Positions 7,679-11,512 of a stretch of 21,582 nt of DNA are shown one piece after another. The stretch spans positions 1 through 21,582 of the IMG/VR virus record IMGVR_UViG_3300031706_000057; one strand, 5' to 3'. Every line of letters starts with the position of its first letter. The stretch's first letter is position 1. Source of the stretch: a virus. The notes beneath the pieces were generated by a model, which made no database searches, was not told where the DNA came from, and was given only the letters and a program-made list of their open reading frames with translations. A program made the translations under genes and the position numbers.

Positions 7679-7905
7679 TGTTTATTCTCCTTAATACTTG
7701 AAGTTGCTTTAACACTGCCACAATTGGCGCAATAAACAATTGTTGCAATAAACTGGTGTTTACCGATTTTAATGTTTCTTTTACCAGTTGATATATCTAT
7801 TATATCACAACAGCCATTAAGTGTCAACTGTTTATTTCTATTATTATTAACTCCTGATATCTGAGAGATAGGCTTAATTTGCATTCCAAAGCTATACCTA
7901 TTCAT
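7675..7905 (-). CDS. Small Cys-containing hypothetical protein (76 residues)
   Basis: Not recognised. It follows the bilin reductase gene with an 8-base overlap, and GAGG stands eight bases before the ATG, so it is translationally coupled to it. It contains a CC pair near residue 32 and a CxxC (YCANCGS) near residue 60, which could bind a metal or be a redox pair. It is not a ferredoxin: too few cysteines in the wrong spacing. A perfect sigma-70 promoter lies inside the gene. Confidence 0.6.
   Translation of the reverse strand: MNRYSFGMQIKPISQISGVNNNRNKQLTLNGCCDIIDISTGKRNIKIGKHQFIATIVYCANCGSVKATSSIKENKQ
7799..7827 (-). promoter_or_regulatory. Consensus sigma-70 promoter inside the 76-residue gene
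   Basis: TTGACA, 17-base spacer, TATAAT with an extended TGn: both hexamers perfect. It drives the 66-residue gene, gp33 and gp59, separating them from the bilin pigment genes upstream. Confidence 0.85.
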
Positions 7906-8587
7906 CGTTTAATTCCTCAAATAATACATTGTTAACGTATTTGTCTTTATCTTCTTCCGATATTCCCATTGCTAAAATAGAACGGTGCAAGTGCGGATTA
8001 AGCTTTTGATTTTGACAATACTTGTTTAGTAATGGTTTTATATTTCGATGACTATCGAGAGCATTTGTATCTATGTTATCTAGGTAATGATCTACTAAGT
8101 CAGTTGTTACTGCGATAAACTGATCAAGCTCTTCGTCAGTCTTGATGTTACCTACTGCAAGCATGTCTTTTGAAAATATCTCTTGTGCCCACGGCGGTAA
8201 TTCTCTAGGCTTATTCCATTCTAAGTCTTTAACTCGCCTTTCCATATATTCATTATACGGATGCGGGAAACCGTGCAAAGGACTATAATCCATAAACGAA
8301 CCTGTAATTTTTTTAGGTCCTGCTACAATATCAAATCCAAGAATTGGCAATTCATAGCTTGGGTCTGGAAATACATTCACATGCATTAGCCACAAGCCTT
8401 TACCATCTGCTGGTACAATTGTTTTTAAATGAGCTTTTGATACTTGGTCAGAGTGCCAAAAAGTGTCATTCCAATCTTTGAATTTAAGATCGTCTGTATA
8501 CTTTTCGTTATCATAACGAGTAAAATGTTTATCAAAGCTTGCTGAAATATAATCAGCATAGCCATTTAATCTATCCCATAGTTCCAT
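7898..8587 (-). CDS. pcyX: Ferredoxin-dependent bilin reductase, PcyX/PcyA type
   Basis: A 229-residue ferredoxin-dependent bilin reductase, which reduces biliverdin to a phycobilin using reduced ferredoxin. The core matches PcyA: MHVNVFPDPSYELPILGFDIVAG (68-90) against cyanobacterial [23 protein letters not shown], then PRELPPWAQEIFS and a C-terminal YVNNVLFEEL. H69 and D86 correspond to catalytic His88 and Asp105 of Synechocystis PcyA. Where PcyA has Glu76 (HLEL), this protein has Lys55 (HLKT) by my eye alignment. PcyX enzymes from oceanic phages, thought to infect alphaproteobacteria, are PcyA-related but make phycoerythrobilin; short length, lost Glu76 and phage context fit PcyX. AGAGG precedes the ATG. 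It lies in one leftward block with heme oxygenase; no ferredoxin is encoded nearby. Confidence 0.9.
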   Translation of the reverse strand: MELWDRLNGYADYISASFDKHFTRYDNEKYTDDLKFKDWNDTFWHSDQVSKAHLKTIVPADGKGLWLMHVNVFPDPSYELPILGFDIVAGPKKITGSFMDYSPLHGFPHPYNEYMERRVKDLEWNKPRELPPWAQEIFSKDMLAVGNIKTDEELDQFIAVTTDLVDHYLDNIDTNALDSHRNIKPLLNKYCQNQKLNPHLHRSILAMGISEEDKDKYVNNVLFEELNDE

Positions 8588-9129: not shown

Positions 9130-9158
9130 ATTATACTACGTAATAGCAGCTTTGTCAA
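9130..9158 (-). promoter_or_regulatory. Consensus sigma-70 promoter at the end of heme oxygenase
   Basis: TTGACA, 17-base spacer, TATAAT: both hexamers perfect. The -35 lies in the last codons of the heme oxygenase gene. It gives the small genes and the bilin reductase a second, independent start. Confidence 0.85.
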
Positions 9159-9705
9159 CCATTTCTTTTGAAAGTTCATCAAATAATTCTGAAGCAAAAT
9201 CAAAACAAACCTTTGCTTCATCAGCCATATCGTCAGATAACAATGTTCTAAACTGTTCAATAAGAACTTTAGTGTCACCTTCGAATTCGTACATCAAGCC
9301 ATTGCCAGGAGTTTTCTTTTTGATGATTTGTCCGCCGTGTAATTCACCAAAGTGGCGAACATACATATGTGCAAGTAAAGCTTCGTTATCATCAGCCTCT
9401 GCTAACCCATTAACGTATGCTGCATACTTATTTACTGATGGAGGAAAAACACCTGTAGGAGAGTAACCGAAGACATCTTCTAGTTCTCTAATATCTTCAA
9501 AGATACGTCTATGGCGTTTAATAGCGTGTAGGTTTGGAGGGATAATAGTGTGTCGTTCTAGTACTTCGTAATTCATGTACTGACAACATAGGAATTTGTG
9601 ATACAATGCTGTATCAATATTGCCGGAAATAAGTTCTTTAGCGAATTTTCTTCGCTCGGCAGATTGGTGGTGAGCCCACGTTAGTTCTTTCAATTTGTTT
9701 GACAT
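9136..9705 (-). CDS. Heme oxygenase (biliverdin-forming)
   Basis: A 189-residue heme oxygenase, which opens heme to biliverdin, Fe2+ and CO with electrons from ferredoxin or another reductant. The proximal ligand is probably H13 in WAHHQSAE (family pattern HTQAE). The distal helix reads RHFGELHGGQIIKK (118-130), matching the LGDLSGGQ motif, but the catalytic Asp (Asp140 of human HO-1) is Glu121 and the following Ser is His. Length is slightly below cyanobacterial HO1 (about 240), as the C-terminal tail is short. AAAGAGGA precedes the ATG. It is the first protein gene after the tmRNA and lies upstream of the bilin reductase, so the two form a phycobilin pathway from heme. Confidence 0.93.
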   Translation of the reverse strand: MSNKLKELTWAHHQSAERRKFAKELISGNIDTALYHKFLCCQYMNYEVLERHTIIPPNLHAIKRHRRIFEDIRELEDVFGYSPTGVFPPSVNKYAAYVNGLAEADDNEALLAHMYVRHFGELHGGQIIKKKTPGNGLMYEFEGDTKVLIEQFRTLLSDDMADEAKVCFDFASELFDELSKEMVDKAAIT

Positions 9706-9713
9706 AATATCCT

Positions 9714-9728
9714 CTTTAATAATTAAAG
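9714..9728 (-). promoter_or_regulatory. Perfect inverted repeat before heme oxygenase start
   Basis: CTTTAATTATTAAAG is a 7-bp perfect inverted repeat between the tmRNA coding piece and the heme oxygenase gene, ending within its Shine-Dalgarno (AAAGAGGA). It may be a processing site for the tmRNA 3' end or may mask the ribosome site; I cannot tell which. Confidence 0.35.
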
Positions 9729-9770
9729 TGCCACTTTTCTGTTGCTAAGTAAGTGGCCAACTCCCTGTGA

Positions 9771-9818
9771 TTATGCTGCTAGAGCAAATAATCCAGATGG
9801 TGCGAAATTTTCATTTGC
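9771..9818 (-). other. tmRNA tag reading frame (ANENFAPSGLFALAA)
   Basis: Fifteen codons starting with the resume codon GCA and ending with TAA. The peptide begins ANENFA, like alphaproteobacterial tags of ANDNFA type, and ends ALAA, the hydrophobic-Ala-Ala end recognised by ClpXP and related proteases. The middle (PSGLF) differs from the tags I know. Confidence 0.9.
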
Positions 9819-9897
9819 ATTTAGTTTAATTGATCTATGCGCGATCATCCGGTAAACTCCACTTCACTACATCGTCCGTCGATCCTTGTTCAGCCCC

Positions 9898-9966
9898 ATC
9901 AAAAACATACTGCCCGCTTTATCAGAGCGTTCCATCCTCATTACAGGGGTTGGAACAGTATGCTTT
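9898..9966 (-). other. tmRNA internal transcribed spacer
   Basis: The 69 bases between the encoded CCA end of the acceptor piece and the GGGG start of the coding piece. CATACTG near one end pairs with CAGTATG near the other, holding the two tmRNA ends together; an inner GTTCCA/TGGAAC stem follows. By analogy with alphaproteobacterial pre-tmRNA it should be removed by RNase P and a 3' processing nuclease. Confidence 0.8.
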
Positions 9967-10033
9967 TGGTGGAGCTGTCGGGTACTGCCCCCGAGTCCGA
10001 TCCGATTTCACGTTGCTTCAACGTTTACAATAT

Positions 10034-10041
10034 TATTTATA
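10034..10041 (-). promoter_or_regulatory. Late promoter box TATAAATA overlapping the tmRNA promoter
   Basis: An exact TATAAATA overlaps the end of the -10 hexamer of the sigma-70 promoter. If used by gp55, it would let the tmRNA and heme oxygenase be transcribed late as well as early. Confidence 0.45.
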
Positions 10042-10069
10042 TAATATACTAGTAACAGACACTTGTCAA
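10041..10069 (-). promoter_or_regulatory. Sigma-70 promoter for tmRNA and heme oxygenase
   Basis: TTGACA, 17-base spacer, TATTAT (5 of 6). The predicted start, near 10034, is just upstream of the tmRNA acceptor piece. Confidence 0.75.
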
Positions 10070-10098
10070 CAGTTATTTTAATAACTATAATGTCGCAC

Positions 10099-10329
10099 CT
10101 AGTCATATCCAAGATTAGCTATCAGTTCTCTCTCCTGTTGGAAGCGCTCTTCCCAGGCCAATTCAAATCCAGCTTCGTGAATATAGCTTTCATTATTATT
10201 CCACAGTCTTTTAAAATAACTATCATGTATTTTTTCAACGCTGGCATCTGTTTCAATGGGATCAATGAGTTTACCTTTGATCATCCAGTTAAATCGGTTG
10301 GCTTCTTTACGTACAGCTTCAGTGCACAT
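10099..10329 (-). CDS. Small hypothetical phage protein (76 residues)
   Basis: Not recognised. A soluble, mostly helical protein with many aromatic and charged residues (NRFNWMIKGKLIDPIE, YFKRLWNNNESYIHEAGFELAWEERF). It has a very strong ribosome site (AGGAGG, 8 bases before ATG). It stands alone between the terminator at 10394-10414 and the tmRNA promoter. The leader holds a CATAAATA, one base off the late-promoter octamer, so it may have its own late promoter. Confidence 0.7.
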   Translation of the reverse strand: MCTEAVRKEANRFNWMIKGKLIDPIETDASVEKIHDSYFKRLWNNNESYIHEAGFELAWEERFQQERELIANLGYD

Positions 10330-10530: not shown

Positions 10531-11340
10531 TTAGCCACATGCCTTTTTAATATCTGAAATATTCAATGCTAGTCTGGTGTTAAATACATTATTAGCTTGA
10601 TTAATGTTTAGACCCTCGTATAATGCTCTACTGAAGCTAGCAACTACATTTTCATTATCGTTTAGCCTGCGGCATGCTTCAGTAGTACCGTATCCTCCAC
10701 TTAGAAATACTAATTGTTCCACGTTAGGAAACACTGTAAGATTGTGATATATATTTGGTACTTCCGGTGGTGTTAGTTTGAGAATGCATTTGCCTGGAAA
10801 CTCATCTAAGAATTCTTGTAAATGAAACATAAGAGCGTCTTCTACTTCACCTTTAATAGGATGATCAATAGGTACTTCTGGTTCAATGATTGGTACAAGA
10901 CCATATTCACTAATAGTACGAGCAAGTGTAAACTGTTGTTTAAGCACAGGATGAATCATTTCCGTACCATACACAATGCTTCGCATTTTAGTACCGTAGA
11001 TTTTAGGACCAATGCCGTTTGTAGCAAACTCTAACATTTGTTTTACTGGAAACTGTTTCATTGTGCCATCTGAATCGACACCGTTATCAATCTTTAAGAA
11101 AGTATCAATACCCATCTTATCTAGGATATTAACCATACCACGATTAACAGTATCTTTGAATAAAATCGCAGCACTTATGTTACTATCGTTAAAGCTAGGA
11201 CTGTTGACCATTCGCAAACGCATAGCATGAATATGATCCATCATATTGTGTTCAGTATATTTTACACCGTAACGATCTAACGTGACTGCAGATGAGCCGC
11301 CGCTTTGATCTAATGCTGCAATAAACCTGTTATCAGTCAA
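10531..11340 (-). CDS. Class I fructose-bisphosphate aldolase (probable TTG start)
   Basis: A Schiff-base aldolase that splits fructose-1,6-bisphosphate into two triose phosphates. It closely resembles the bacterial Staphylococcus-type class I enzyme: FIAALDQSGGSS near the start, ILFKDTVNR, YGTKMRS, VPIIEPEV, the Schiff-base lysine in CILKLTPP (K188 from the chosen start), FLSGGYGTTEA and ASFSRALYEGLN. I chose TTG at 11340 (269 residues) because GAGGAAA stands just upstream and it overlaps the previous stop by only 8 bases; an ATG at 11397 in the same frame lacks a ribosome site and would overlap the upstream gene by 65 bases. That start would give 288 residues, close to the usual 296. Likely an auxiliary metabolic gene, followed by a terminator. 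Confidence 0.88.
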   Translation of the reverse strand: MTDNRFIAALDQSGGSSAVTLDRYGVKYTEHNMMDHIHAMRLRMVNSPSFNDSNISAAILFKDTVNRGMVNILDKMGIDTFLKIDNGVDSDGTMKQFPVKQMLEFATNGIGPKIYGTKMRSIVYGTEMIHPVLKQQFTLARTISEYGLVPIIEPEVPIDHPIKGEVEDALMFHLQEFLDEFPGKCILKLTPPEVPNIYHNLTVFPNVEQLVFLSGGYGTTEACRRLNDNENVVASFSRALYEGLNINQANNVFNTRLALNISDIKKACG

Positions 11341-11512
11341 TTGAAATTTCCTCTTCTTCTTCAAATTGCACAAATGCTTTAAGTGTTCGACCATCATCTT
11401 GTAGTTGAAACTTCAGCTCTTGCACTCCATACTTTGTATAAGCACGACCTTTATTATCTACAACCTCAAAACGAGTAATCTCGTCTCCAAATGTAATGTA
11501 CTCAACAATCAT
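11333..11512 (-). CDS. Small acidic hypothetical protein (59 residues)
   Basis: A short gene starting MIVEYITFGDEITRFEVVD and ending in an acidic run (FEEEEEISID). Its strand-turn pattern (YITFGDE, RFEVVDNKGRAYTKYG, LKFQLQ, LKAFVQF) suggests a small beta-barrel. It fills the gap between the 48-residue gene and aldolase and overlaps the aldolase TTG start. GGGGATATGGACA precedes the ATG. No family recognised. Confidence 0.6.
   Translation of the reverse strand: MIVEYITFGDEITRFEVVDNKGRAYTKYGVQELKFQLQDDGRTLKAFVQFEEEEEISID

Follow-up and report, generated by a model that had tools for sequence, protein, structure and literature searches.

Among 18,146 phage genomes, 402 have been reported to encode a tmRNA; the two-piece genes comprise 53 unique forms, of which 50 are marine or aquatic, and Melnitz, a phage of Methylophilales, is described as carrying a two-piece tmRNA of the alpha type, along with an early promoter and a glutamine riboswitch (PMC9004378). 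The nearest isolate found in the present work is Mosig, a phage of SAR11 (Pelagibacter) in which a two-piece tmRNA occurs together with hemO and a bilin reductase gene. Phage cassettes that associate hemO with pcyX or pcyA have also been described, in a paper whose main text mentions neither tmRNA nor ssrA (PMC11480375). In addition, one nominally archaeal permuted tmRNA holds a tRNA-Ala inside its intervening sequence (IVS) (PMC11915505).

The window analyzed here, which is the entire 21,582-base virus record IMGVR_UViG_3300031706_000057, carries a complete, circularly permuted, alpha-type tmRNA gene at c9729-10028, as recognized by ARAGORN and by two Rfam models. ARAGORN calls a permuted gene (tmRNA*) at c9680-10059 with the tag ANENFAPSGLFALAA; in the Rfam scan of the window, RF01849 (alpha_tmRNA) matches over the full model with 110 bits (gathering threshold 50, E 1.3e-29), and RF04321 (tmRNA_permuted), also over the full model, reaches 103.2 bits (gathering threshold 47), with a match that begins at 10028. 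The initial annotation had claimed a permuted, alpha-lineage tmRNA in a phage, and had proposed a covariance-model search with RF01849 and a permuted ARAGORN call as checks; the claim is borne out by both, as well as by RF04321 and by the T4-like gene content of the window, which includes DNA polymerase, UvsY, a late sigma factor, UvsX, UvsW, and gp59.

All elements of the molecule lie on the minus strand. The acceptor piece of the mature tmRNA (62 nt, 9967..10028), whose probable 5' end coincides with the start of the RF04321 match, contains the GUAAAC arm of an inter-piece helix (10028-10023), the T arm UCGGG-GGCAGUA-CCCGA (9994-9978; stem UCGGG/CCCGA, loop GGCAGUA), and the acceptor 3' half CAGCUCC followed by ACCA (9977-9967). 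The 69-nt IVS (9898..9966), expected to be missing from the mature RNA, is followed by the coding (mRNA-like) piece (9729..9897), whose probable 3' end is placed by the pseudoknot and which opens with the acceptor 5' half GGGGCUG (9897-9891); the 3' acceptor half is thus encoded ahead of the 5' half, and the 7-bp acceptor stem with G3-U70 is present. Within the coding piece, GUUUAC (9852..9857), as read from the sequence, is complementary to GUAAAC; the same helix appears in the structure line of RF01849, and this pairing could tie both pieces together. The tag reading frame, ANENFAPSGLFALAA plus UAA (9771..9818), is intact and has a degron-like AA at its end, and beyond it lies an H-type pseudoknot (9730..9761) with the conserved AGCAACAGAA, whose pairings GUUG/CAAC and GCCACUU/AAGUGGC were likewise read from the sequence. 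The order of CAGCTCC-ACCA before GGGGCTG with a 69-base spacer, the 7-bp stem with G3-U70, the T-loop GGCAGTA, the tag frame, and the pseudoknot after the tag had all been recognized initially, and each is confirmed, the spacer being exactly 69 nt. The gene does lie within the limits first proposed, 9729-10033, but the probable start, G10028, lies 5 nt downstream of the 5' limit given there. As for novelty, the phage permuted tmRNA is real, but its kind was already reported from marine phages in 2022 (PMC9004378), and the gene of the window is a further member of that type. The structure of the spacer itself was absent from the initial description.

The gene and the alphaproteobacterial two-piece ssrA (RF01849/RF04321) have in common the permuted order, the encoded CCA, the acceptor stem with G3-U70, the T loop GGCAGUA, a tag of the AN..N...AA type, and a pseudoknot with AGCAACAGAA. 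They differ in RF01849 score (110 bits, as compared to 240-313 for the best cellular matches listed), in the region that aligns in RF01849 with the host 5' hairpin, which in the window is an A/T promoter box, in an SG insertion present in the tag of the window, and in the length of the IVS, which measures 69 nt in the window and 10-61 nt in the 28 top-scoring cellular genes, whereas others reach 163 nt and more. Melnitz and Mosig are, like the source of the window, marine myophages with a permuted tmRNA; unlike Melnitz, the window has no riboswitch match in Rfam. The heme oxygenase and bilin reductase of Mosig are 34% and 33% identical to those of the window, and its spacer, like that of the window, pairs across the CCA end. 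However, the tmRNA of Mosig adjoins a late-promoter accessory gene, while that of the window adjoins hemO, and Mosig has the tag GEDNFALAA and a different, 44-nt IVS. The window is similar to the hemO-pcyX and hemO-pcyA cassettes in combining a heme oxygenase with a ferredoxin-dependent bilin reductase (FDBR), which here follow the tmRNA, and to the archaeal tRNA-Ala case in harboring a structured RNA insert within the IVS (PMC11915505); the latter, however, involves a single tRNA, whereas inserts of the window kind are exchanged, non-tRNA cassettes that also occur outside tmRNA.

The start codon of hemO (9136..9705, minus strand; heme oxygenase, PF01126, E 4.4e-20) lies approximately 24 nt past the probable 3' end of the tmRNA, and small ORFs follow, and then the FDBR gene (7898..8587, minus strand; PcyX/PcyA/PebS superfamily, PF05996, E 4.3e-18, phrog_7278). 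No intrinsic terminator was found in 9650-10150. In a survey of the best 80 of 227 viral loci with a relative of the hemO of the window, a same-strand tmRNA was found in 38, its acceptor half 237-1524 nt upstream of hemO; in 30 others the upstream sequence was too short to judge. Uncultured phages with hemO and bilin reductase are thus often equipped with a ribosome-rescue RNA and a tag of their own (38 of 50 judgeable loci). In the 12 loci with at least 1.5 kb of upstream sequence where a tmRNA was not found, 11 of which were also negative with Rfam (L006 being outside the Rfam scan), the tmRNA may lie elsewhere in the genome, as in Mosig, or be absent; it is not invariably adjacent to hemO. 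A search for SmpB gave no match in 16 phage records, most of them fragments, and was positive in 10 of 14 control genomes; because no phage SmpB was found, use of the host protein is assumed. Megablast of the window against 50,697 phage records, a set from which very near records were possibly excluded, yielded no match. A further gene of the window (10531-11397, minus strand) has a weak, above-cut-off match to class-I fructose-bisphosphate aldolase (PF00274, E 4.6e-7) and no PHROG match.

Upstream of the acceptor piece, TATAAATA, the T4 late-promoter consensus quoted in PMC5587285, occurs in the window at 10041-10034 (10034..10041, minus strand), which corresponds to positions -13 to -6 with respect to G10028. 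A putative sigma-70-like promoter, TTGACA-N17-TATTAT (10041..10069, minus strand), overlaps this box and extends upstream, with an 11/12 match to the consensus in a scan that yields 4 such sites in 501 bases as opposed to 1.2 in shuffles. The TATAAATA 8-mer is not enriched across the window, with 5 occurrences against 3.5 expected. In the related loci, the 5' motif GT..CG.TGAA starts exactly 51 nt before the acceptor half in 55 of 55 cases, a set defined by the presence of that motif and in which some contigs were fetched twice. Upstream, conservation is highest in an A/T box that spans -13 to -5 and that in 33 distinct upstream regions takes the form TATAAATA in 9, a TATATATA-like form in 21, and AATAAATA in 2, while one more region carries TATAAATA shifted by one base; many of the TATATATA-like regions, as read by eye, have TTGACA at sigma-70 spacing. 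A universal late promoter was ruled out as too strong a reading, since 21 of the 33 regions have the TATATATA-like box. These arrangements suggest that transcription would begin at or near the mature 5' end, G10028.

The tag frame is present in all 55 family loci, in 25 distinct sequences that end in LAA, except for one that ends in IAA, and 21 of the 25 have the form AN[DENT]N[FY][AK]PSG. A DNA pattern for ANxN[FY]APSG, which begins with GCAAA, fixes Ala as GCN and Ser as TCN and misses other spellings, retrieved only 3 stretches from a collection of genomes from 84,980 species, and a reading of the ORFs places all 3 among phage genes, on contigs contained in bins. A tree of 126 rows, made from mature sequences, has one branch that divides 39 phage rows (36 family members plus 3 of that tag type) from all 78 cellular alphaproteobacterial rows, with bootstrap 86 and SH-aLRT 94, values left unstarred, that is, below the mark of the tool for a firm branch; deep branches of this tree are weak, and its bootstrap is unsettled. 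The tree omitted duplicates, rows that were too short, loci unparsed by the pattern, and a fixed exclusion list that named L001, L095, L104, L085, L143, L110, L175, L140, L082, L108, L114, and L115 as well as 13 loci (L083 among them) to which a false ‘spacer’ of 461-721 nt had been assigned. Cellular RF01849 scores were 240-313 bits among the best listed (266 of 289 genomes matched), 168-236 bits plus two at 80 and 67 in a second set (49 of 49 genomes), and 143-208 bits plus two at 115 and 97 in 36 genomes chosen for low scores. A bacterial donor, sought by tag in the genome collection and by the tree, low-scoring cellular tmRNAs included, was not found in any close form. The gene likely belongs to an old alpha-type phage lineage rather than being the result of recent capture. 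The suggestion of an alphaproteobacterial host or donor, for which a tree with alphaproteobacterial ssrA had been proposed, survives only in part, in that the molecule is of the alpha type and the SAR11 phage Mosig combines the same three kinds of gene; but the tmRNA of the window falls within the 39-row phage group (86/94), which stands apart from the 78 cellular rows. The lineage reading tells little regarding which alphaproteobacterium hosts the phage.

The acceptor stem and the spacer together fold with z = -4.71, as compared to z = -2.78 for the spacer alone. In 33 distinct phage sequences with spacers of at least 30 nt, the IVS ends add 12 pairs to the acceptor stem beyond one fixed C·A mismatch, and 9 of the 12 display compensatory changes. 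Pairs 1-8 (the acceptor stem and A73-U) are formed in 97-100% of the sequences, position 9 (C74 opposite A) is unpaired in 33 of 33, and positions 10-21 are paired in 97-100%, save position 12 (67%), so that the IVS helix is paired in 383 of 396 cells. Positions 10-21 have 58 double-change cells against a mean of 14.0 in shuffles that ignore relatedness, none of the 1000 reaching as high. The spacer is thus structured and under selection for pairing. In 28 cellular genes, positions 9-21 are paired in 4-75% in the phage register, and several of these genes fold a spacer hairpin in another register; the fixed-register test is unfair to cellular genes, and a helix in the spacer is not in itself something that phages invented. 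A tRNA within the spacer of the window was excluded by ARAGORN, and a known riboswitch or ribozyme by Rfam, where at a permissive threshold the IVS matches only tmRNA models plus two entries with E of 1 or worse. Pairing between a leader and the CCA end has been reported to inhibit RNase P (PMC9433436), and the spacer helix is therefore predicted to need opening before an RNase P cut; processing of the RNase P type is expected for this tmRNA from its family, but since the CCA end is engaged in pairing with the spacer, the cut may initially be blocked.

Most of the spacer of the window (9903..9965, minus strand) is occupied by a structured RNA cassette, here termed the W type, which consists of a variable but covarying helix P1, a P2 hairpin, and a P3 hairpin with a CUGAUAAAG loop. 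In an alignment of 23 of the 24 distinct copies, from which a tmRNA remnant in locus L265 was excluded, the three-helix structure is paired in 96.3% of cells, versus 27-45% in slid controls. Nine pairs are changed on both sides (shuffle mean 4.0) and 37 cells carry double changes (11.0 in shuffles), in each case with 0 of 500 shuffles as high; the number of further pair types is not above that of shuffles (18 against 16.7, 125 of 500). In P1, where variation is compensatory, every cell (100%) is paired; the outermost pair of P2 does not form in 14 of 22 copies, and the inner CCA...TGGAAC...CTGATAAAG is nearly invariant, which is partly explained by search patterns that required GGAAC and CTGATAAAG. 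A covariance model, R1, scores the cassette of the window, one of its training rows, at 58.1 bits (E 6.6e-11), and gives 25 strong matches in 99 loci, corresponding to 23 W-pattern loci, the window, and the phage CRP-143, with none added. In 25 whole records, 11 matched, with one W copy each; one of these is diverged (31.7 bits) and can be read as the IVS of a further permuted tmRNA (L346), where ARAGORN makes no gene call. A hammerhead-like reading of CUGAUAAAG was rejected, the order of conserved parts being unfit when set against the hammerhead consensus.

The spacer is exchanged between tmRNA genes. The window and locus L002 differ by only 8 mismatches over 8,520 bases outside the IVS in an ungapped comparison, 2 of the 8 lying 9 and 11 nt from the spacer edge, and yet their spacers, of 69 and 82 nt, are unrelated. 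The L002 IVS shares 96% identity with its counterparts in the distant L073 and L076, where the adjoining flanks align at only 50-53%, with stretches of L002 and L073 at 71-77% identity farther out, and the IVS of the window is 97% identical to that of L010, with flanks at 61% and 75%. The same pattern is displayed by L041 and L038, which have 4.5 kb at 98.3% identity and a spacer at 47%. An assembly error in L002 is unlikely, as both junctions are flanked by near-identical DNA. Among 85 distinct tmRNA genes, a set that combines viral contigs and phage-like bin contigs and includes other phage tmRNA types and one host-like gene (L137), identity of the IVS is scarcely correlated with that of the tmRNA pieces (r = 0.17). 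Of 3,570 pairs, 88 have an IVS at least 95% identical with pieces below 85%, and 9 have pieces at least 95% identical with an IVS below 65%; loci were partly gathered by IVS-core patterns, which inflates the counts of shared cassettes. The spacers of these 85 genes form 28 clusters of 22-167 nt.

Cassettes are also found outside tmRNA. The A-core pattern occurs in 31 stretches representing 23 distinct contexts, of which 18 are tmRNA genes, 16 recognized by script and two (L322/L330 and L331) by reading; the remaining 5 (L312/L334, L317, L325, L326/L332, and L329) all lie in gaps of tRNA arrays, that of L312/L334 sitting between tRNA-Lys and tRNA-Ile; because L317, L326/L332, and L329 are near copies, these represent three kinds of site. 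ORFs of at least 60 codons that overlap the A element in L312, L317, L325, and L329 are antisense to it. The core of the 82-nt spacer occurs in 14 stretches and 9 contexts, 8 of them tmRNA and one, L249, in a tRNA array directly upstream of tRNA-Trp, with its own closing helix. By eye, the sequence of this core in L002 and L249 permits an H-type pseudoknot between the first-hairpin loop CUGCAA and a downstream UUGCAG.

The W core was present in 36 stretches and 32 contexts among the loci then gathered, 26 of them tmRNA and 6 not. The six comprise L259, L261, and L266/L286, with at most 6 closing pairs, the tmRNA remnant of L265, and two standalone copies, L274/L275 and L279, with 26 and 15 closing pairs. 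Hits of the W pattern that lacked a surrounding tmRNA and had no more than 7 closing pairs (L259, L261, L266/L286, and L304) were judged to be chance, and hits L298-L302, which are without the fold, were set aside. A further W element, detected by blastn of phage records (41 bases, 82.9%, E 0.02), is found in the T7-like Roseobacter phage isolate CRP-143, in the gap after DNA maturase B, and has 10 closing pairs. In genomes of the alphaproteobacterial class, the W pattern occurs in 2 of 385, one being the bin with phage contigs of this kind and the other showing a site with 7 closing pairs. No tRNA genes were found near the W copies of L274/L275, L279, and L265 within the fetched 10-11 kb, and Rfam gave no non-tRNA, non-tmRNA match in the cassette loci L249, L274, L279, L265, L312, L317, L325, and L329. 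The L265 remnant (7980-8110, plus strand) belongs to a hemO/FDBR-like phage with a decayed tmRNA, where the TATAAATA box, the W element, and a CAACAGAA tail are kept while the acceptor and tag regions are gone. In CRP-143 (L307), a second long hairpin (641-698), ending GTTACTCTAAA...TTTAGAGTAAC, directly follows the W element and is possibly another cassette type. Searches of one literature library brought up no paper on tmRNA-spacer exchange or on these cassettes, and a swappable, structured IVS cassette that is found also between phage tRNA genes appears to be new.

The anatomy of the gene, its phage-lineage tag, the covarying IVS helix, the exchange of cassettes, and their presence outside tmRNA are directly shown by these analyses; from them, we infer a course of expression, processing, host SmpB and ClpXP use, and cassette function. 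The promoter would set the 5' end at or near G10028, and the transcript, which probably runs on into hemO, would be cleaved into an acceptor piece with its encoded CCA and a coding piece; the two pieces would then pair, receive alanine, bind host SmpB, and rescue stalled ribosomes, adding a tag whose ALAA end would be destined for host ClpXP. The discarded IVS would come from a shared stock of portable, structured RNA elements, swapped among phages and also retained by them between tRNA genes. Its outer helix would stack on the acceptor stem and pair across the CCA end. The IVS would most likely serve as a processing module, one that keeps both ends joined and has to be opened before the RNase P cut. 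That the locus encodes a working phage two-piece tmRNA that employs host SmpB, with an exchanged, portable cassette that is most likely a processing module as its IVS, is the reading that we consider to be probable with good confidence. A processing role is favored because most sites found are spacers of RNA precursors (tmRNA and tRNA arrays), and the cassettes probably act in this manner, on the circumstantial basis of a helix across the cleavage sites and of their location in tRNA and tmRNA precursors; the W copies of L274/L275, L279, and L265, which have no tRNA gene in the fetched sequence, speak against it. The nearly invariant inner loops, which the search patterns partly required, exceed the needs of a plain spacer and hint at a bound factor. 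The broader proposal, that marine phages share small portable RNA devices with a variable, covarying closing helix and conserved inner loops, which are inserted in tRNA arrays and in the discarded spacers of permuted tmRNA genes, are swapped between phages that are otherwise nearly identical, and have a selected function, either in the control of processing or in conflict with host RNases, instead of being filler, is put forward tentatively, its chances being somewhat short of even.

The exchange of spacers could instead be neutral, with the conserved tmRNA halves serving as homology arms in T4-like phages that recombine at high rates, any helix-closing sequence being tolerated, and the cassettes having no function. 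The tmRNA pieces are indeed conserved enough for recombination, the window carries the recombination genes UvsX, UvsW, and UvsY, and 28 IVS clusters of 22-167 nt exist; nevertheless, the inner loops of W barely vary, in contrast to the covarying P1, isolated cassettes are maintained between genes, and L265 has kept its W element and a tmRNA-like tail with the rest of the tmRNA missing, so that we regard neutrality as doubtful, albeit worth serious consideration. A different possibility is that we are dealing with selfish mobile DNA of small size, for which homing-type endonucleases might provide movement in trans and which would survive where RNA is discarded, in the IVS of tmRNA and in tRNA spacers. 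The replacement with sharp limits between two nearly identical genomes, accompanied by two edge substitutions reminiscent of co-conversion, the presence of different cassette clusters at one site, and the tRNA-spacer sites would all fit such elements, but inspection by eye revealed neither a target duplication nor a fixed terminal repeat, the ends vary yet stay paired, as selection for RNA pairing would give, and each of the 11 matched records holds one W copy; this explanation seems improbable.

Equally improbable in our view is a function of the IVS as a small RNA after its excision, such as that of a decoy which lures a host nuclease or defense protein and has been diversified by phage-host conflict. 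Stable structures with conserved loops, alternatives at one locus, and sites beside tRNA genes are compatible with this role, against which stands the lack of any Rfam match for the cassettes. Lastly, the tmRNA itself could be a recently captured host gene or a decaying, functionless remnant, as its alpha-type family and the broken tmRNA of L265 might suggest; but the separate phage group in the tree, of moderate support, the restriction of the ANxN[FY]APSG tag to three stretches of the genome collection, all phage-like by ORF reading, and the intact structure and tag across the family make this highly improbable. Above all, the gene shows that a split RNA gene can have a spacer that is exchanged as a module, and the window and L002 provide a natural allele pair that isolates the spacer as the variable. 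If functional, the cassettes represent RNA families without an Rfam entry that are tied to the making of stable RNA in phages; if functionless, they offer a clean recombination record of the ocean phage pool.

Some further loci deserve mention. L013, L016, and L144 are mosaic tmRNA genes, with the T loop form GGTTCAAATCC and another tag, ANDNSYA[HR]EDFALAA, and with an upstream motif, spacer, or tail in common with the family. L144, a possible chimera of two tmRNAs, has its IVS in common with a contig of the same bin, so that it may be misassembled, and no inference was drawn from it; its row is counted in the IVS-helix, tree, W-element, and spacer-identity analyses. The bin of a Rhodobacteraceae MAG (G001) yielded one host-like tmRNA at 284 bits and six weaker, above-cut-off alpha-tmRNA matches, some of them on phage-like contigs, indicating that several related phages were co-binned with one MAG. 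Finally, in G174, G270, G292, G293, G313, and G321, the Rfam match of the cellular alpha tmRNA extends over 703-907 bases, which implies very long spacers.
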